The position numbers and the translations under genes were made by a program. 37,653 nucleotides of DNA from an uncultured Veillonellaceae bacterium (lineage in GTDB: Bacteria; Bacillota; Negativicutes; Selenomonadales; Selenomonadaceae). The stretch is taken from contig OMZR01000026.1 in the NCBI GenBank assembly GCA_900315575.1, forward strand, positions 1-37,653, given 5' to 3'. The notes below the pieces were generated by a model. It ran no database searches, was not told where the DNA came from, and was given only the letters and a program-made list of their open reading frames with translations. Shown piece by piece: positions 5,623 to 37,653 of this stretch (positions within the stretch are counted from its first letter, which is position 1; every line of letters begins with the position of its first letter).

Positions 5623-5685
5623 TTGTCAACATCCAATTTTGATATAGATTCGGGGATGTTTCATCGTGTTCCCATACGCTATGAT
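5623..5685 (+). promoter_or_regulatory. Candidate promoter region of the clostripain-like gene
   Basis: Two weak possibilities are visible. TTGTCA (5623-5628) is 16 bp from TAGATT (5645-5650). A good -10, TATGAT, lies at 5680-5685 but without a clear -35. The region is AT-rich compared with its surroundings and follows a terminator, so a promoter is expected here. Confidence 0.35.
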
Positions 5686-5739
5686 AGAAATGTGGAGAAA
5701 ATTTTCACACAAGAGAGACAACGAAAGGAGATGGATCTT

Positions 5740-7713
5740 ATGGACGATCGTTGTTTTATGAGGCGGCGCGCTGGGCTGTGGAAAGCCCTGACGGCCGTGC
5801 TCTGTGTGGTGTTCCTGATGCTTGCTTTCGCCGGCTGTAGCGATGATGGTGAAAGTTCGTCGGGGGGGCAAGGAAAGATCGATGGCCTCGGCGAGAAGAC
5901 GACGGGCACATGGGTCGTCGAGATGTACGTCTGCGGCACGGACCTCGAATCCGAGAATGGCGCGGCGTCGGACGACCTCGCGGAGCTCACGAAAAAGAAA
6001 CCGCCGGAAGGCGTGACGTTCGTCATCCAGACCGGCGGCGCGAAGAAATGGCAGAACAAGGACGTCAAGCGCAAGGAAATCGACCGCTTTGTCTATGACA
6101 AGGATGGCCTGCGGAAAGTCGAGCACAAGAAAGATGCCGACATGGCTGCGACGGACACGTTCGCTGATTTCCTGCACTACGCGAATGACAACTACGCGGC
6201 GGATCACCGCATCCTCATCGTCTGGGATCACGGCGGCGGCACGGTCGGCGGCGCTTGCTACGACGAGCGCTCTGGCAACATGATGAAGCTGAACCAGATG
6301 CAGGACGCGCTCGCGAGCACCTACAACAAGAACACGGAAAAGCCGCCATTTGACATCGTCGGCTTCGACTGCTGCCTCATGGCGACGTATGGCGTGGCGA
6401 ACGCGTTCGAAGGATACGGCCGCTATCTCGTCGCGTCGCAGGAGCTCGAGCCGGGCAACGGCTGGTATTACACGGGCATCGTCAACGGCTTCAACAAAGG
6501 CGTCGGCAGCGATCCGCTCGTGCTCGCGAAAGTCATCTGCAACGCGTACATGAAAGGCTGCGAGGAAGCCGGCACGGAGGACCTAGCGACGCTCTCCGTC
6601 ACAGACCTTTCGAAGATGCCGCAGCTGCGTGCCGCGTATGAGAAGATGGGCGACGAAGCGCTCAAAGTCGCGCAGGCCGATCCGAAGAAATTCTTCTCGC
6701 GCTATGGCCGCCAGGCGAAGAAGTCCGAGAATTTCGGCGGCAACACGCGCGACACGGGCTTCACGAACATGATCGACCTCGGCGATTTCGCGCAGCGGAC
6801 GGAAAAGCTGCTGCCGAAGACGTCGAAAGATGTCATGGCGGCGCTCGATAATGCCGTCGTCTATCGCGTGAACGGCGACCTGAAGAAAGATTCGCACGGC
6901 CTGTCGTGCTACTATCCGTACCAGGTTGAGCAGCAGCCGTACTTCGAGGACGTGCGCGCCGCAAGCGACAGCTACAAGAAGCTCTACCGCTACCTCGCGA
7001 CGGGCAAGGCGCCGAAAGGCACAAAGAAGTCTGTGATGTTTGATGTCAGCAGCATGGAAGACCTCAAGCTCGATGCGGACAGCGAAGGCACGGTCTTCTG
7101 CAAACTCACGGAGCAGCAGATGGAAAATCTCTCGACCGTGCGCTGCGACCTCATCTGGTATGACGTCAACCAGGGTTCGCTCGTCATGCTCGGCAACGAC
7201 GCGAATGTCGACATGGATTGGGACAGCGGTATGTGCAAAGACAACTTCGACGGCACATGGGTCATGATCGACAAGCATCCCGTCTACATCGACGTGACGG
7301 ACGAGACAGAAAATCACATCACGTACGCGATCCCGATCAAGCTGAATGGCAAGCAGATGAACCTGTTCGTCTCGTATGATATCAACGCGAAAGCATACAA
7401 AATCCTCGGCGCGCGCGCCGGCCTGAACGAGAAAGGCGCGGCCGACCGCAACCTCGTGAAGCTGAAATCCGGAGACAAGATCACGACGCAGTTCTACGGC
7501 GCCAGCATCAATGGCAGCGGCGATGACGTCGTGCTCGTCGATGCCGATACGTTCACGATCAGCGACAACACGACGGTTTCCGACGAGCCGCTCGAAGACG
7601 GCACGTACGGCTACGTGTTCGACTTCATCACGCCGACCGGCGACTACTCGATGTCCGACCTTGCGACGTATGAGCTGAAGAACGGCAATATCACGACGAC
7701 GGTATACGAATAA
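5740..7713 (+). CDS. Clostripain-family (C11) cysteine peptidase, lipoprotein
   Basis: The protein has 657 residues. The N-terminus is basic, then hydrophobic, and ends in a lipobox LAFAGC with Cys33, so it is probably lipid-anchored outside the cytoplasm. The caspase-like core follows: VVEMYVCGTDLES (the strand and acidic motif of C11), the catalytic His164 in VWDHGGG, and Cys212 in FDCCLMATYGVANAF, where two adjacent cysteines occur and the second aligns with the usual DACLM. The last 250 residues are a beta-rich region without a recognised domain. C11 enzymes cut after Arg or Lys and often self-process. ATG 5740 is 9 nt after AGGAG, while ATG 5731 directly abuts it, so 5740 is chosen. The acidic-tail gene follows 58 bp later, probably in the same transcript. 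Confidence 0.88.
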   Translation: MDDRCFMRRRAGLWKALTAVLCVVFLMLAFAGCSDDGESSSGGQGKIDGLGEKTTGTWVVEMYVCGTDLESENGAASDDLAELTKKKPPEGVTFVIQTGGAKKWQNKDVKRKEIDRFVYDKDGLRKVEHKKDADMAATDTFADFLHYANDNYAADHRILIVWDHGGGTVGGACYDERSGNMMKLNQMQDALASTYNKNTEKPPFDIVGFDCCLMATYGVANAFEGYGRYLVASQELEPGNGWYYTGIVNGFNKGVGSDPLVLAKVICNAYMKGCEEAGTEDLATLSVTDLSKMPQLRAAYEKMGDEALKVAQADPKKFFSRYGRQAKKSENFGGNTRDTGFTNMIDLGDFAQRTEKLLPKTSKDVMAALDNAVVYRVNGDLKKDSHGLSCYYPYQVEQQPYFEDVRAASDSYKKLYRYLATGKAPKGTKKSVMFDVSSMEDLKLDADSEGTVFCKLTEQQMENLSTVRCDLIWYDVNQGSLVMLGNDANVDMDWDSGMCKDNFDGTWVMIDKHPVYIDVTDETENHITYAIPIKLNGKQMNLFVSYDINAKAYKILGARAGLNEKGAADRNLVKLKSGDKITTQFYGASINGSGDDVVLVDADTFTISDNTTVSDEPLEDGTYGYVFDFITPTGDYSMSDLATYELKNGNITTTVYE

Positions 7714-28181: not shown

Positions 28182-28193
28182 ATGCTTTTTATG

Positions 28194-28260
28194 CGTTTCG
28201 TGACAAGAAAATGCATTTCGTGCCACATTTCCCCAAAACGTCGTGCCAACATGGTAAGAT
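28194..28260 (+). promoter_or_regulatory. Direct-repeat box promoter D (pga operon)
   Basis: TGCGTTTCGTGACA and TGCATTTCGTGCCA have cores at 28194 and 28214 (20 bp). The extended -10 TGGTAAGAT has its hexamer at 28255-28260, 41 bp after the second core. An additional TCGTGCCA lies at 28241-28248. The leader to the pgaA-like ATG is about 70 nt. Confidence 0.78.
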
Positions 28261-28337
28261 GATTTTGAACAGAAACAATAGAACTTTTCACGGAAAGGAT
28301 CATGACAAGAAATGCAGGAAAGCGAGGGGAAGGATCG

Positions 28338-30233
28338 ATGAAATGGAAAGAGATGCAGGCCGGGCTCTTAGGGTGCGTCTGCGTTCTCGGAGCTTCTGCG
28401 GCGCCAGCGATGGCGGCGCAGCCGTATTGGACAGATTACGATGATGGCGTCGCCGCGCTTGAGCGGCACGACAATGTGACAGCAGAGGCTTGCTTCGAGC
28501 GGGCAGTCGCAGAAGTCCCCGAAGAAGATCGGCAGCGTTTCCGCTTTGACGTGGATGCGAAGCGGGCGGCGCTCTATATCAAGAACGGGGAACCCGACCG
28601 TGCGGAAAAGATTCTCGCGCCCTATGTGATGGCGGGAACGGACAACATGAAAGTCGTCAGCGACTATCTCATGGCGCTGCGCATGAATAACAAGCCGAAA
28701 GAGGCCATATCGTATTTTGAAACATATTGCACGGACTGGAGCCGGATGCCGGTCTACGGCCTTCAGAACATGGGCGACGTGTACCTGCGCCAGGGAGATT
28801 GGAAAAAGGCGCACAAGCTCTACACGTACACGCTGCCGCAGTCGGACAGCGACTTCGTCCGCATGGGCGACGCCTACGCACTCGCCAACCTCGGCCGGAA
28901 AGAGGAAGCAATCGGAGAGTACAAGACCGTCGTCAAGCGGAACCCCGTCCGTCAGACCATCGTGCCGATCGATGCGGCCGTCTTCCTCCAGCATGGCGAC
29001 GTGGCGTTCGCGCGGAAGATGTTTGCCATGCTCGGCCAGACGCCGGAGGAACGCGAGCATTACCAGCTGGCATATGCTCAGGCGCTGCTGGATGCGCAGC
29101 GTGACAAGATTGCAGACCCGAAGCAGCAGTTCCTGCGCGATGAGCGCCTGTCGGGCCGCGACTATCATCGCGAAATCGACAAGGTGCTCGCGCCGCTGCT
29201 CGAAAGCGGAGACGAAGACGTCCGCACGCAGGCGCTCGCGCTCAAAGCGCGCAACCAGCTGCAGCGCGGCGCGGTTCGTTCGGCGGAAAAGACGCTCGAC
29301 CTGTCGCTCGAACATAACACGCAGGCCCCGGCTGCCTTCCGCACCGGCTCGGATCTCTCAACGACGTTCCGTCACGAGCTGACGGTCACGGCGGGCGAAA
29401 ATGTCGATACCGACAGGAACCATTACCGCGATGTCGGCGTGGATTATCGGCAGTATCTCGGCAGCAATCTCTACGCCCTCGCGGGCACGGGCTGGTCGCG
29501 CACGGAAGACGGCGATGTGGCGGGCACGTACAACGAATCGTATGCGGGCTTCGACTGGCGCCAGCCCTGGGGCTTTTTCCAGCTGACATACGACCGTGCG
29601 ATGGGGGACATCGAGCGCGACGGCTATGACGCGCTGCTGCATTACGATCCGAACGACCTCACGAGCATCGAGCTCGCGGCCGGGCGTCATCCCTACGACG
29701 CGGCGCGGGCCGTCCGCGCTGGCATCTACCGTGATACCTATGCGCTCCGCTTTGATCATTTCCTGACGAACCGCTGGCGGCTCGGCCTCACGGGCGAGCG
29801 GGCGGACATCTCGGACGGGAATGACTGGTGGGCGTTCGGCATGGACACGTCGCTCGACATCGGCGGCCGCCACAACTACCGCGACCAGCTGCTGGCCTCG
29901 TACCGCTACAGCCATTACGACGAACCAGCTGACGAATACAATGCACCAAACCGCCGCGTCGAATACGCGTTCGGCACCAGCCGGAAGTGGACGGTGCCGC
30001 GCCTCCTGGCGTCGTGGGAGCTCACCCCGATGTTTGGATGGAATCAGGAGGACGGCGAAGGGACGGAATTCTCGCCGAGCCTCCGTCTCGCCTACCGCCG
30101 CGACTTCGCCCACTACCAGAGCCTGGCACTCGGCCTCCAGTATGACTGGCGGCAGCACCGGCCTGACCGTGCCGATGTCAATCACCGCAGGAGCGGCTGC
30201 AGCGCAGACATTTCGTATGAAGTAGGATGGTGA
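28338..30233 (+). CDS. pgaA: PgaA-like outer-membrane exporter of poly-N-acetylglucosamine
   Basis: The protein has 631 residues. A signal peptide (LLGCVCVLGASAAPAMA-A) is followed by TPR-like helical repeats to about residue 340 (DDGVAALERHDNVTAEACFERA, MGDVYLRQGDWKKAHKLY). From about 350 the sequence alternates in the manner of an outer-membrane beta-barrel and ends in an aromatic residue (SYEVGW). A periplasmic TPR domain plus barrel is the design of PgaA, which guides the deacetylated polymer through the outer membrane. It is shorter than the E. coli protein (about 800). The order of genes that follows (deacetylase, glycosyltransferase, small membrane protein) confirms the role. ATG 28338 follows GGGGAAGG; the frame extends to 28302. 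Confidence 0.85.
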   Translation: MKWKEMQAGLLGCVCVLGASAAPAMAAQPYWTDYDDGVAALERHDNVTAEACFERAVAEVPEEDRQRFRFDVDAKRAALYIKNGEPDRAEKILAPYVMAGTDNMKVVSDYLMALRMNNKPKEAISYFETYCTDWSRMPVYGLQNMGDVYLRQGDWKKAHKLYTYTLPQSDSDFVRMGDAYALANLGRKEEAIGEYKTVVKRNPVRQTIVPIDAAVFLQHGDVAFARKMFAMLGQTPEEREHYQLAYAQALLDAQRDKIADPKQQFLRDERLSGRDYHREIDKVLAPLLESGDEDVRTQALALKARNQLQRGAVRSAEKTLDLSLEHNTQAPAAFRTGSDLSTTFRHELTVTAGENVDTDRNHYRDVGVDYRQYLGSNLYALAGTGWSRTEDGDVAGTYNESYAGFDWRQPWGFFQLTYDRAMGDIERDGYDALLHYDPNDLTSIELAAGRHPYDAARAVRAGIYRDTYALRFDHFLTNRWRLGLTGERADISDGNDWWAFGMDTSLDIGGRHNYRDQLLASYRYSHYDEPADEYNAPNRRVEYAFGTSRKWTVPRLLASWELTPMFGWNQEDGEGTEFSPSLRLAYRRDFAHYQSLALGLQYDWRQHRPDRADVNHRRSGCSADISYEVGW

Positions 30234-30238
30234 ACCAG

Positions 30239-32041
30239 ATGAAAAAGACAAGGAAGCTCCTGGCGGCGTTCGTCGGCGCATGCTGTGCAATCGGTGCGTT
30301 CTGCATGTCCGGCGGGACGGCCGCCGCGCAGGTCTCGGTTTTCTGCTATCACGAAATCGAGAAGCCGAAAGACCCCTATGCCATCCCGCAAAGAGAGCTG
30401 GAGCAGCAGATCAAGGACTGGAAGGCGCAGGGCTACCGCTTCGTTTCGCTCGATGAATACGAAGCCTACATGAAAGGCGAGCTCACGCTCCCCGAAAAAA
30501 GCGTCATGCTGACATTTGACGACGGCTATGCGTCCGTCTACACGAAGGTTTATCCGCTGCTCCAGAAATATCAGGTCCCGGCGATGATTGCACTCGTTAC
30601 TTCGTGGACGGAGGGCGAGAGCAAGCCAAGCGACGTCGGCGACCTCCTGACATGGGAGCAGATTCGCGAGATGGAGGCGAGCGGCCTCGTGAGCGTCGTG
30701 TCGCATACGCATGCCATGCACAAGCAGCAGGCCATCGACCCGCAGGGGGACCGCAATGCCGTAGCGGGCAGTCATCTCTATTTCCAGAACCTCCCGCAGG
30801 CGGACGGCAGTGTCCAGAATCGCTACGAGACGGAAGAAGAATATCAGACCCGTCTCCAGCAGGATTTGAAGAAGGTCCAGTCGGTCTTTGAAGAGCGCCT
30901 TGGCCATCCCGCCCGCGCCATCGTATGGCCGTATGGCACATTTTCCGGCGAAGCGCAGCGAGCTGCGCAGGCAGCCGGTATGGAAGCCGCGTTCAATCTG
31001 AATGCGAGCGCGAACAACACGCCGGGTCAGACGACCCTCATGAATTCGAACCGTGCCCTGATTTCCAAAACGACGCAGAAAAAGGAAATCCAGCATGACC
31101 TTGCGGGCTATCGGGTGCCCATCCGCATGGCGCAGGTGGACATCGACGCCATCTATGACGAAGACCCCGCCGTGCTCCGCGAGAACATCCGCGGCGTCAT
31201 CGAACATCTCAACAACAACAAGATCAACCTCGTCGCGCTGCAGGCATTCGCCGACCCCGACGGCGATGGCAACGTGGACAAAGTCTATTTTGAGAATTCC
31301 GTCGTACCCGTCGAAGCAGACGTCTTCAACACCGTGGCGGACGCCATCGAGGCCGACGGCATCGACGTCGTGGCCTGGCTGCCGGGCCTGAGCTACACCG
31401 CGCTCGCAGCGGCGGACGGCAGCAACCTCGTACAGGCGGATGGCGAAGCGGGCTGGTATCATCGCCTGTCGCCGTTCGATGCGGCGAACGAAGCGAAGCT
31501 CGTGGCGCTCTACCGCGATCTCGGACGCTACACCGTGGCGCAGGGCGTTTTGTTCCAGGACGACCTCTACATGAACGATTTTGAAGACGTTTCGCCTGCG
31601 GCAAAGGGCGCGAATACGGCAGCGAAAACGAAGCGCCTGACCGACCTCTCGCTCGCGCTCGGCGCGGCATTCCGCGAAAGCCATCCCGATGGCCTGCTGC
31701 TGCGCGACATCTACGACGAAGTCGTGCTGAATCCGGCGTCGGAAGAATGGTTCGCGCAAAACTACAAAGACTGCCTGCAGCACTACGACTACGTCGTCGT
31801 CATGGCGTATCCGTACATGGATCACGAAAAGAAGCCGCTCGACTTCCTCGCTCGCGTCGCCAAGGCCGTCGAGAAAGCTGGCGGCACAGACAAGACCATC
31901 GTCAAGATCCAGTCGTACGACTGGGAGAAGGAACGCTGGTTCAGCAACAAGAATTTTTCTGCCCAGATGAAGACGCTGAAGCAGGCCGGCATCCGGAACC
32001 TGGGATACTATCCGAACACATTCTGCTACTGGGAGAGATGA
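30239..32041 (+). CDS. pgaB: PgaB-like poly-N-acetylglucosamine deacetylase/hydrolase
   Basis: The protein has 600 residues and an exported N-terminus (LLAAFVGACCAIGAFCMSGG). The polysaccharide-deacetylase domain (about 35-260) shows FCYHEI, the catalytic LTFDDGYASVYT and SVVSHTHAMH. The second domain (about 290-600) is the glycoside-hydrolase-like module of PgaB, with VDIDAIYDEDP, LFQDDLYMND and MAYPYMD. PgaB deacetylates part of the polymer in the periplasm, which export requires. No lipobox is clearly placed, although two Cys lie in the hydrophobic segment. The frame is open from ATG 30227, which abuts its ribosome site; ATG 30239 is preferred. It starts 5 nt after the pgaA stop. Confidence 0.9.
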   Translation: MKKTRKLLAAFVGACCAIGAFCMSGGTAAAQVSVFCYHEIEKPKDPYAIPQRELEQQIKDWKAQGYRFVSLDEYEAYMKGELTLPEKSVMLTFDDGYASVYTKVYPLLQKYQVPAMIALVTSWTEGESKPSDVGDLLTWEQIREMEASGLVSVVSHTHAMHKQQAIDPQGDRNAVAGSHLYFQNLPQADGSVQNRYETEEEYQTRLQQDLKKVQSVFEERLGHPARAIVWPYGTFSGEAQRAAQAAGMEAAFNLNASANNTPGQTTLMNSNRALISKTTQKKEIQHDLAGYRVPIRMAQVDIDAIYDEDPAVLRENIRGVIEHLNNNKINLVALQAFADPDGDGNVDKVYFENSVVPVEADVFNTVADAIEADGIDVVAWLPGLSYTALAAADGSNLVQADGEAGWYHRLSPFDAANEAKLVALYRDLGRYTVAQGVLFQDDLYMNDFEDVSPAAKGANTAAKTKRLTDLSLALGAAFRESHPDGLLLRDIYDEVVLNPASEEWFAQNYKDCLQHYDYVVVMAYPYMDHEKKPLDFLARVAKAVEKAGGTDKTIVKIQSYDWEKERWFSNKNFSAQMKTLKQAGIRNLGYYPNTFCYWER

Positions 32042-32076
32042 CACAGCTTTGAAATCTTACGAAAGGACTGTTTGAT

Positions 32077-33321
32077 ATGACCGCGAATGGATTCGTGGAA
32101 ATCATGAAAGCGTATGTTTTTTTCTATCCGCTCATCATGAGCATCGCCTGGATCATCGGCGGCATCTTCTTTTATTGGCGCAGGGAAAAAGGACACAGCA
32201 AGGAGCCGCCGAAGCTCAAAGAGCATCCGAAGGTCAGTGTCCTGATCCCCGCGCACAACGAAGAGCGCGACCTGCGCGATGCCGTCACATCGATTTACAG
32301 CAACTGCTATGAAAATCTCGATGTCATCGTCATCGACGACGCCAGCACGGATGGCACGCAGGATGTCATCGAGCGCCTCATGGTGGAATATCCGACGCTC
32401 CGCGTCGTCCGCCTGACGCGGAACATGGGCAAGGCGAACGCCCTCAATGCGGCGCTGCCGATGACGCGGGGCGAGATCATCGTCACGCTCGACGCGGACA
32501 GCATGCTCGACGAGCACGCCATCGAATGGGCGGTCTGGCATTTCGTCAACTTCCCGCGCGTCGGTGCCGTGACCGGCAACCCGCGCGTCCGCAACCGCAC
32601 GACGCTGCTCGCGAAAATCCAGACCGCGGAATACGCGAGCGTCATCAGCCTCATCAAGCGCACGCAGCGCCTCGTCGGCAAGCTCATGACCGTCTCCGGC
32701 GTCGTCGCGGCCTGGCGGAAGACGGCGATCGTCGGCGCCGGCGGCTGGGACCCGCGCTCCGTGACGGACGACATCGACATGACATGGCGTCTCGAGACGC
32801 GCTTCTGGGACATCCGCTACGAGCCGAACATGCTCTGCTGGATGCTCGTGCCCGAGACGCTCCGGGGCATCTGGCGCCAGCGCTTGCGATGGGCGCAGGG
32901 CGGCGTCGAAGTCATCCGTATGCACAAAGGCGTCTGGACAGACTGGCGCGAACGGCGCATCTGGCCAATCTACGTCGAGTATGTCATGGGCATCCTGTGG
33001 TCGTATGCGTTCCTCGCGTATCTCCTGCTCTGGGGGATGAGCCAGCTCACGGGCGTCGGGCGGGAGATCGTCGGCAATCCGTTCTGGGGTTGGAACGGCG
33101 CCGTCATCGCCTGCGTCTGCCTGCTCCAGTTTGCCATCAGCGTCCTGCTCGACATGCGCTATGACGAAGATTTGTGGAAAGTGATTTTCTGGGTCGTCTG
33201 GTATCCCGTCGTGTACTGGGCCTTCAATGCGATGGCGGCAGCCGTTTCGTTCCCGAAAGGGCTGTTGCGTTCCATGGAGCAGCCGGCGACCTGGGTGAGT
33301 CCTGACAGGGGGGTTCGATGA
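32077..33321 (+). CDS. pgaC: PgaC-like family 2 glycosyltransferase
   Basis: The protein has 414 residues with an N-terminal membrane segment (IIMSIAWIIGGIFFY) and several C-terminal ones. The GT2 core has SVLIPAHNEERDL, VIVIDDASTDGT, ATVTLDADS-like IIVTLDADSML, TDDIDMTWRL and the QxxRW motif as QRLRWAQGG. This enzyme polymerises UDP-GlcNAc into beta-1,6-GlcNAc at the inner membrane and in E. coli works with PgaD under c-di-GMP control. AAAGGA precedes the ATG. The stop overlaps the start of the next gene (ATGA), as expected for the PgaC/PgaD pair. Confidence 0.93.
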   Translation: MTANGFVEIMKAYVFFYPLIMSIAWIIGGIFFYWRREKGHSKEPPKLKEHPKVSVLIPAHNEERDLRDAVTSIYSNCYENLDVIVIDDASTDGTQDVIERLMVEYPTLRVVRLTRNMGKANALNAALPMTRGEIIVTLDADSMLDEHAIEWAVWHFVNFPRVGAVTGNPRVRNRTTLLAKIQTAEYASVISLIKRTQRLVGKLMTVSGVVAAWRKTAIVGAGGWDPRSVTDDIDMTWRLETRFWDIRYEPNMLCWMLVPETLRGIWRQRLRWAQGGVEVIRMHKGVWTDWRERRIWPIYVEYVMGILWSYAFLAYLLLWGMSQLTGVGREIVGNPFWGWNGAVIACVCLLQFAISVLLDMRYDEDLWKVIFWVVWYPVVYWAFNAMAAAVSFPKGLLRSMEQPATWVSPDRGVR

Positions 33322-33728
33322 TGAAACAGCAGAAACCAGTCATTGATTGCAGTGAAAAAAGAAACATTCTGATCCGTCGGGCGGAACAGCTCATTTCCAC
33401 CATCGCCACATTCGTCTTGTGGATTGTCGCGTTCTACGCCATCCGCCACATCCTCGTGCTCGGGAACTATCCGCAGGATTCGATGATGAAAGTCCTCGCC
33501 ATCCTGCTCCTCGCGACGCTCCTGCTCCTCTTCACGAGCGCATTCTGGCAAGTGTACAACATCTGCCTCTTCCGCGGCCGCGACCGTCGCAAAGCCGTCC
33601 CGATGCCATCGGAAGAACAGCTGGCCGCCACATTCTCCATGACGCTCCAGACCTACGAAGCCGTCCAGCACAGCGCATACGTCGAAGTCTCATCGCTCGA
33701 CGGCAGGGGATATTGCGTGATGAAATGA
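33318..33728 (+). CDS. pgaD: PgaD-like accessory membrane protein
   Basis: The 136-residue protein has two membrane segments (about 27-48 and 57-78), followed by a cytoplasmic tail with RGRDRRKAVPMPSEEQLAATF. Size, topology, position after pgaC and 4-nt overlap identify it as PgaD-like; sequence alone is less specific. In E. coli PgaC and PgaD together bind c-di-GMP and are unstable without it. The arginines in the FRGRDRR loop are plausible for such contact, but this is inference. It is the last gene of the operon; no terminator is seen before the toxin-antitoxin promoter, 42 bp downstream. Confidence 0.8.
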   Translation: MMKQQKPVIDCSEKRNILIRRAEQLISTIATFVLWIVAFYAIRHILVLGNYPQDSMMKVLAILLLATLLLLFTSAFWQVYNICLFRGRDRRKAVPMPSEEQLAATFSMTLQTYEAVQHSAYVEVSSLDGRGYCVMK

Positions 33729-34388: not shown

Positions 34389-34396
34389 ATTTTCTG

Positions 34397-34463
34397 CATT
34401 TCGTGCCAAAAAAGTGCATTTCGTGCCACATTCCCCCATCTGCGAGGGATTTTGTGGTATGGT
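34397..34463 (+). promoter_or_regulatory. Direct-repeat box promoter E (adhesin)
   Basis: Two identical TGCATTTCGTGCCA copies have cores at 34397 and 34417 (20 bp). The extended -10 TGGTATGGT has its hexamer at 34458-34463, 41 bp after the second core. Confidence 0.8.
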
Positions 34464-34511: not shown

Positions 34512-34870
34512 AGGAATCGTACAAGGGAGTGGAGCATTATGAAGACGACATGCCGTACAACGCATATTTACAAACCGCACAGCAGGGCGGAGCGGGCGCT
34601 GGTGCTCGCGGTGCTCACGGCGCTGCTGTCGGGCGCGGCGGCGACGCCGGCGATGGCGAGAGATCGAACGATTGCAGAGGACGAAACGGTCACGGTGACG
34701 AATGCGACGAGGGAAACCAATCACAGGGCATGTCTCACATACAGTGCGACGGAAAAAGAGTCCGACACGAACAACATCACGAACAGCACCTCCGGCAACA
34801 CGCTCACCCTTCTTGGTACGGTGGATGCCAGCGTAGGGAATTATATGGCATGGATTACACCTGCTTATTC

Positions 34871-34877
34871 GGGGGGG
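34871..34877 (+). repeat. Homopolymeric G7 tract (candidate phase-variation switch)
   Basis: Seven G in codons following Tyr-Ser shift the adhesin out of frame. One added G makes the upstream and downstream coding parts continuous (AYSGG then ADVLSKN). Confidence 0.8.
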
Positions 34878-34997
34878 CAGATGTCCTCTCTAAGAACCAT
34901 GTATTCATCCAAGGCGGCACGACCTACTATGGGATTGTTTATGGCTGCTGGTCCAAGAGCGGCGCGGTGAAAGAGAACCGGGTGGATATGTCGGTCG

Positions 34998-35625
34998 GCA
35001 ATGTCAATTTTGCCTACGGCGGCTGGTCCGTAAATGGCGACGCGACGGACAACACCGTCGCGCTCACCGGCGGCAAGATCTCTGGCGATGCCTACGGCGG
35101 CCACTCCAACAATGGCGCCGTGACGGGCAATAAAGTCGCGATCTCCGGCGGCACGGCTCTCTGGGTCTGCGGCGGCCATTCCGAAAATGGCGCCGTGACG
35201 AAAAACACCGTCGCGATCACCGGCGGCACCGTCGGGATCGCCCAGGGCGGCTATGCCACTCAGTATGGCGCCGTGACAAACAACACCGTCACGCTCGCAG
35301 GAGGCACGGTCAAACTTGTCGTCGGCGGCCAGTCCGACAATAATGGCGACGTGACGGACAACACCGTCACGATCTCCGGCGGCACCGTCCAATATTCTGA
35401 TGTGGGCGTCTACGGCGGCCGCTCCGTGAAGGGCACCGTGAAGAACAATCACGTGAACATATCAGCCGGTACGGTCGATGGCAGTTACCCATCTACATCT
35501 AGTGGCATCTTCGGCGGCTGTTCCTATAATGGCGCCGCGACAAACAACAACACCGTCACGATCACCGGCGGCAAGATCACGGGCAAGGTGGTCGGCGGTG
35601 CGAGCAATACCGCGACGGACAACAA
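34998..35625 (+). repeat. Degenerate in-frame adhesin repeats
   Basis: About nine degenerate units of 60-75 bp encode patterns such as GGHSNNGAVTGNKVAISGGT and GGYATQYGAVTNNTVTLAGG. Each holds a YGG/CGG/VGG turn and an N-T-V strand. A second cluster lies at about 37150-37440. Such repeats are prone to recombination. Confidence 0.7.
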
Positions 35626-37653
35626 CATCATCCTCGCCAAAGGCGCAGCCGCAGCCAATCTGCAGAGCGCCACGCTCTACGGCTCTATCCGAGACGCCTC
35701 CTACCATGGAGACGTCAGCCTCCCAGACACCCACAGCGGCAACACGTTGACGGTCGAGGGGGAGAAAAACATCACGGTCGCGAACGTGAAAAACTTTGAT
35801 ATTTACAATTTCGTCCTCCCCGCCGACGTGCAGAACGAAGCCCCCTTCCTCATTATCAACGATGGCGGCGATACAGACCTCGGGAAAGCATCGGTGACGG
35901 TCACGGGCGAACCAGCCCTTTCCCTCAACACGGGCGACACGCTCTACCTGCTGAAAAAAACCAGCGGCGCCCTCACAAACATCGGCGAAACGAACCTCGT
36001 CTACACGAACAAAGCGGGAAACGCCACGGTCCGTACCCCGGGCACGCTGGCGTCGGACGGCAAAATGACCGTCGGCGACAAGACGTACTGCACGTTCGAC
36101 CTTTCCCCCGATGTGACGAACGGCTACAAGTTCCTCGCCTCCAAGTACCTGGCAAAGAAGAAGATCGGCATCGATAACGTGGCGGTGACGACGAGCGGAG
36201 GAGTCCTCAGCAAGGGAGACAGGCTCGCCCTGGTGGACGGCACCGCCGTCACGCCCACGTACACCGGCGACGCAAAAGCGGTGGATGTCACCTACGAGAA
36301 CGACGACAAAACCGCCACCATCCAGACGACGGGCACGGTGAAAGCGGACGGCAAAAACCTCGTCCTGGACATTGACGGCGTGAAGTACCATTTCGTCCTT
36401 GCCCCGACGATGGTGAAAGGAGATACGTTCCTCACGTCTGCGAACACGGGAGAAACGAAGATCGACGCCGACGACGTGACGCTCGACGAGAGCAAACTTG
36501 CCAATCAAATGCTTTCCCTCCGCAAAGGCGATACCGTCTACCTGCTGAAGAACGACACGGCGGGCACGCTCGCGTATACCGAGACCAGCGGCGCAAAAGA
36601 GCTGAACCACACCTACGAAAACAGCACGGACGCCGGAACCGCTACGGTCACGACGCATGGCAAAGTGGAGGCAAGCGGCAACGACCTCGTTTTGAATGTC
36701 AACAATGTGAACTATACGTTCACGCTCGCTCCTGCCGTGACAAGTGGGGCGAAGCTCCTTTCCCTTTCAAGCGCGGGAGAAACGAAAATCTACCAAGACG
36801 ACGTGAAAGTGACTGCCAGCGACGCGCTGAAGAATCTCAAGGCGAAGGACAAAGTCTATCTGATCCAGAATACGGGCGGCGGCAAGCTGAGCGCTGATGG
36901 CACGAAGACCGTCACGCTGCCCATCGTCTTCCAAAACGTCACGGGCACGGTGGCAGCTGTTGACAACAACCTCGTCCTCACAATCACAAACGCGGAATCC
37001 CTTACGCCTGCGGATAGTTCCTATAAATATATCGTCATCGTGGAAGATGCAACGAAAAGCGCGAAGAACGCGGTCACGGTCGGCACGGGCGAAACTGCCG
37101 ACAAGAGCGCCATCGCCGCTTTGGCGAAGAGCGACACGGATGATACGGAGCTGAAGGACAACACTCTGACCGTCAATGGCAAGGTGACCGACCGCGCCGT
37201 CGGCGCGAACAGCGTGGCTGGCAATGCCACGCAGAACAACGTCACGATCGGCGCTGGCGCAACCGTGGACGGCTTCGTCGCCGGCGGCATGACGCAGGAC
37301 GGGACGGCGAATAACAATACCGTCACCATCAACGGCGGCACGGTCACGGGCGACGTCTACGGCGGTTATAGCGAAAAGGAAGCCACGGGCAACACCGTCA
37401 CGATGAGTGGCGGCACGGTCAAAGGGACGATTTACGGCAGCAACCTTGGCAGCGGCACGAGTTCCGGCACGACGGTGAAGAAAAGCAGTCCGCGGCGGGC
37501 GCCAGCTTTGACGGAAACTGAAAGCACCTCCAGCGGCAATACGATGAAGATTTATGGAAAGGACAACACGGCTGGCAATATCGCGAAGTTCGACAACTAC
37601 AACTTCTATCTCCCCGCCGGGACGTCGAACGGAGCCACCATGCTCCATCTCAC

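Follow-up and report, generated by a model that had tools for sequence, protein, structure and literature searches.

The gene that closes the analysed stretch of DNA, hereafter the window (37,653 nucleotides, the whole of contig C38), encodes a putative surface protein and is probably a slipped-strand contingency, or phase-variable, locus whose transcription lies under a separate, shared promoter. Strand slippage at an intragenic G tract would put the rest of the gene in or out of frame; with the seven G of this assembly, translation would end after 143 codons, and the assembled sequence would represent an OFF state. A separate transcriptional layer would be provided by an activator-type paired-box promoter common to a pga-like operon, an HD-GYP response regulator and other secreted proteins. 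The source genome is a 3.16-Mb draft of 221 contigs, the closest named relative found being an uncultured rumen Selenomonas MAG (RUG12578). The gene runs off the contig end, with its 3' end beyond the assembly.

Two reading frames at the G tract

The features of the locus are listed in Table 1. The tract sits about 110 codons into the gene, and the upstream frame stops at 34968-34970, 31 codons past it. An earlier note on this DNA had described a frame with a signal peptide and a frame of more than 900 codons meeting at seven G, and both frames and their junction were recovered here. The downstream frame could be opened ahead of the ATG by a GTG at 34529. This codon was rejected as a start: it overlaps the ribosome-binding site and gives a product without signal peptide, and in the second copy of the gene, on contig C171, the frame has no start codon before L009:3312, a position within the gene.

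Table 1. Coordinates of features at the surface-protein gene, as positions in the window
Feature	Position	Strand	Basis
Paired direct-repeat box TGCATTTCGTGCCA-N6-TGCATTTCGTGCCA, 20-nt period, putative activator site	34395-34428	+	Box matches in window and genome
TATGGT, -10-like hexamer	34458-34463	+	Exactly 29 nt past box pair
AAGGGAG, ribosome-binding-site-like	34523-34529	+	Sequence
Upstream frame (putative OFF product)	34539-34970	+	143 codons from ATG 34539
Signal peptide-like N-terminus, 40 residues	34539-34658	+	Conserved in C171, G001 and G002 copies
G7 tract	34871-34877	+	Junction of both frames; homologous tract in three other copies
Downstream frame, 924 codons, repeat protein	34880-37651	+	Open from tract to contig end
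Region predicted as beta-solenoid	34880-35640	+	High confidence for about the first 200 residues

Exact G7 runs number 59 in the genome, so G7 by itself is unremarkable here; what stands above chance is the position of the tract at the junction of two conserved coding frames, the homologous site in three other copies, and the use of GGG. Most glycine codons of the gene are GGC, with GGG accounting for 9 of 123, and the tract nevertheless keeps GGG GGG. Seven G is the low end of tract lengths for fast slippage. The tract reaches the cut-off of at least seven G/C inside a reading frame that is accepted for Campylobacter, where lengths peak at 9-10 (PMC6321876), and it is flanked by conserved coding frames that a change in its length joins or parts. 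A second G7 run of the window (5862-5868) lies within a clostripain-family peptidase ORF (5623-7713), apparently in frame.

The downstream frame has been preserved through considerable divergence. The copy in genome G001 differs from the window by 299 substitutions and 17 indels, and the C171 copy by 770 substitutions and 27 indels. Every indel in either comparison is a multiple of three, and stops number 0 in both, where about 7.1 (G001) and about 19 (C171) would be expected in the absence of constraint. The dN/dS of the downstream part, about 0.6, fits a surface protein that is relaxed or diversifying. This stop-free, frame-keeping divergence therefore indicates that translation has read past the tract for much of the history of the gene, even though no assembled copy is in frame. 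A conserved frame behind an out-of-frame tract is predicted by a reversible switch and not by a long-dead gene.

The N-terminal region of the gene occurs once more in its own genome (C171) and also in three of the six congeners. At the homologous place, the tract is G7 in the window and in C171 and G9 in G001 and G002, so that its length varies between homologues, both paralogues and species. None of the four tracts is in frame; C171, G001 and G002 are shifted in the direction opposite to the window copy, and both wrong phases are thus represented. An ON allele was found at none of these four tracts, which is not evidence against switching, because the chance of this outcome is 0.2 if the phases are equally likely. 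The more distant homologue in G003 has no homologous G tract and carries a C10 run that breaks the signal-peptide frame, if the upstream ATG is the start. Neither a second allele in viral contigs nor homologues of the gene in plasmids were found. In G002, a congener, the frame of the surface-protein gene (L022, G002:C74) continues stop-free into an AAA_14/DUF4143 ATPase, the product of either recombination or an assembly chimera.

The candidate phase variation put forward in the earlier note gains support from the varying tract lengths, the conserved downstream frame and the long G runs in typical contingency genes described below. That note had set against it an invariant G7 with stops piling up downstream; the lengths observed are 7, 7, 9 and 9, and the downstream frame carries neither stops nor frame-breaking indels over hundreds of substitutions.

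Less likely readings: decay, slippage during expression and assembly error

The main rival is a decaying pseudogene, in which the frameshift at the G run marks an irreversible loss within a gene family that is redundant and shrinking. Damage of this kind is present in the family: C-terminal copies on contigs C37 and C92 carry deletions that lie in no G tract, both the ribosome-binding site and the start codon are gone from the G001 copy of the window gene, L025 has several lesions, and four of four homologous tracts are out of frame. Decay has also been argued over switching for the Campylobacter capC autotransporters (PMC7168839). However, the 924 downstream codons of the window show no stops or frame-breaking indels, and nor do those of G001 and C171, over hundreds of substitutions, while the four copies are all broken at the same few bases and not at random places, which makes decay an unlikely account, if the most serious of the competing ones.

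Slippage of RNA polymerase or of the ribosome on the G tract would give some full-length protein at every tract length, leaving DNA switching unneeded, and is distinctly improbable. The conservation of four copies that are all out of frame agrees with it, but the shift that would restore the frame in the window copy is opposite to the one needed in C171, which rules out a programmed ribosomal frameshift common to the copies, and two thirds of phases are out of frame anyway. Equally improbable is its corollary, a family formally out of frame in all genomes whose small amount of full-length protein amounts to low-level surface display. A homopolymer error of assembly or sequencing is the least probable reading, and very much so: the genome is a draft in 221 contigs, and the consensus length drawn from a mixed population can be arbitrary, but four copies in three assemblies are broken, with tracts of 7, 7, 9 and 9 G and in both directions, and other long tracts of the same assembly, such as the G10 of a flagellin gene, are in frame.

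Paired-box promoter and predicted product

Alongside the putatively phase-variable tract, the gene carries the promoter element that the earlier note had described as a shared box, and this element is real. Box matches in the window number 11 against 0.37 expected. The paired box TGCRTTTCGTGCCA-N6-TGCRTTTCGTGCCA occurs as seven pairs genome-wide (at most 3 mismatches), five of them in the window, with 0 in the reversed control. At all seven sites, a TANNNT hexamer lies exactly 29 nt after the box pair (by eye, TATGAT, TAAGGT, TACAGT, TAAGAT and three times TATGGT). The boxes precede the gene for an HD-GYP-domain response regulator (18475), the pga-like operon (28192), secreted proteins without Pfam match and the surface-protein gene. 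The pga-like (PNAG) operon occupies 28192-33728 of the window and encodes a TPR protein, a polysaccharide deacetylase/GHL13 and a family-2 glycosyltransferase. A sigma-70 -35/-10 pair was not found at the surface-protein promoter, which suggests that this promoter is activator-dependent. The fixed geometry of the paired-box promoter supports the two layers of control proposed earlier, for which we infer an activator at the one and slippage within a population at the other.

A beta-solenoid is predicted, with pLDDT mostly >90, for the ~200 residues that follow the tract; comparison of this region with the PDB returned non-significant matches only, with antigen 43 and tapirin among the first. 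The C-terminal domain of the family, seen in L025 and L138, has Phe as its last residue. Outer-membrane barrels likewise end in Phe. The family C-terminal domains gave no Pfam match even at E 10 and no NCBIfam or PDB match; the type Va autotransporter barrel (PF03797) was not detected in them, nor by a comparison of PF03797 with G001, and the C-terminus of the window gene itself lies off the contig. An N-terminal signal peptide, as in a type Va autotransporter, is read from the sequence and its conservation. An AlphaFold2 model of the L025 C-terminus, built without alignment, had a mean pLDDT of 33 and is uninformative for a barrel. The product is probably a large secreted beta-solenoid protein, an adhesin, which may be autotransporter-like, exposed at the surface and active in adhesion. 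The name adhesin given in the earlier note thus keeps the support of the signal peptide, the repeats and the predicted beta-solenoid, with a family match absent.

Long G runs in the genome and comparison with known switches

The genome contains 49 runs of at least G8, about a dozen of them in hairpin or terminator-like repeats. Other long G runs lie in DNA methylase, methyltransferase, acetyltransferase and flagellin genes, some in frame and some out. DNA methyltransferases, FkbM methyltransferases and flagellin are kinds of gene that carry contingency tracts elsewhere. Runs of G9 and G8 break the frames of a type III-like N6_N4 DNA methylase (PF01555; L057, G000:C60:28637) and of a fused N6 methylase and specificity domain (L058, G000:C66:27611), respectively; both are candidate phasevarions in a rumen Negativicute. 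Long G runs also occur in SAM and FkbM methyltransferases (L059, L063, L097), in a GNAT acetyltransferase (L105) and in a flagellin (PF00669, PF00700; L061, G000:C69:17932), where a G10 is in frame in the central variable region. At six loci (L077, L096, L068, L087, L098, L078), G8-G11 runs lie between -35-like and TATAAT-like elements, flanked by TGTCTTGC, and are candidate promoter-spacer switches.

Exact G9 and G7 runs stand at 51:240 in the genus, against 13:629 in other families of the class (odds ratio about 10, p about 1e-16). A short-ORF family (L071, L083, L090, L100, L103) carries G8-G10 a few codons past the start, in frame in some members and not in others, with a common downstream stretch containing CCACAG. 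The 2.0-Mb genome G018, from another genus of the family, holds 16 exact G9 and 2 exact G7 runs, most written C-G9-T. Genome-wide in G000 (L027-L105), GTC[CT], a motif chosen post hoc, lies at most 11 nt upstream of 14 of 38 long and 33 of 722 short G runs, in unrelated genes. Hairpins flanking G tracts showed no enrichment.

Most of what is known of poly-G contingency switching comes from pathogens, for example Campylobacter and Neisseria. The Campylobacter capD autotransporters (PMC7168839) resemble the present locus in being large surface proteins with an intragenic poly-G whose position is conserved, tracts of around 7-10 and decaying family members; here, in contrast, the phylum is another, the family has no PF03797 barrel match, and transcription is tied to a paired-box promoter common to a pga-like operon. 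Like the Campylobacter poly-G phasome (PMC6321876), this genome has dozens of poly-G tracts with an excess near G9, placed in surface-modification and DNA-methyltransferase genes, whereas here one draft genome stands for each species. In Bifidobacterium breve (PMC9187656), also a gut commensal, slippage at a G tract inside a gene turns a surface structure ON or OFF; the structures there are Gram-positive sortase pili, and switching was measured by maximum depth sequencing.

A search of the open literature on Selenomonas and phase variation found no paper on the subject. Slipped-strand contingency is a known kind of switch, and what is new, as judged from that literature, is its occurrence in this lineage. 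The locus suggests that an uncultured rumen Negativicute has a full switch set, to which DNA methyltransferases, flagellin and surface-sugar enzymes belong, and that its surface-protein switch shares a promoter type with an operon for a biofilm polysaccharide.
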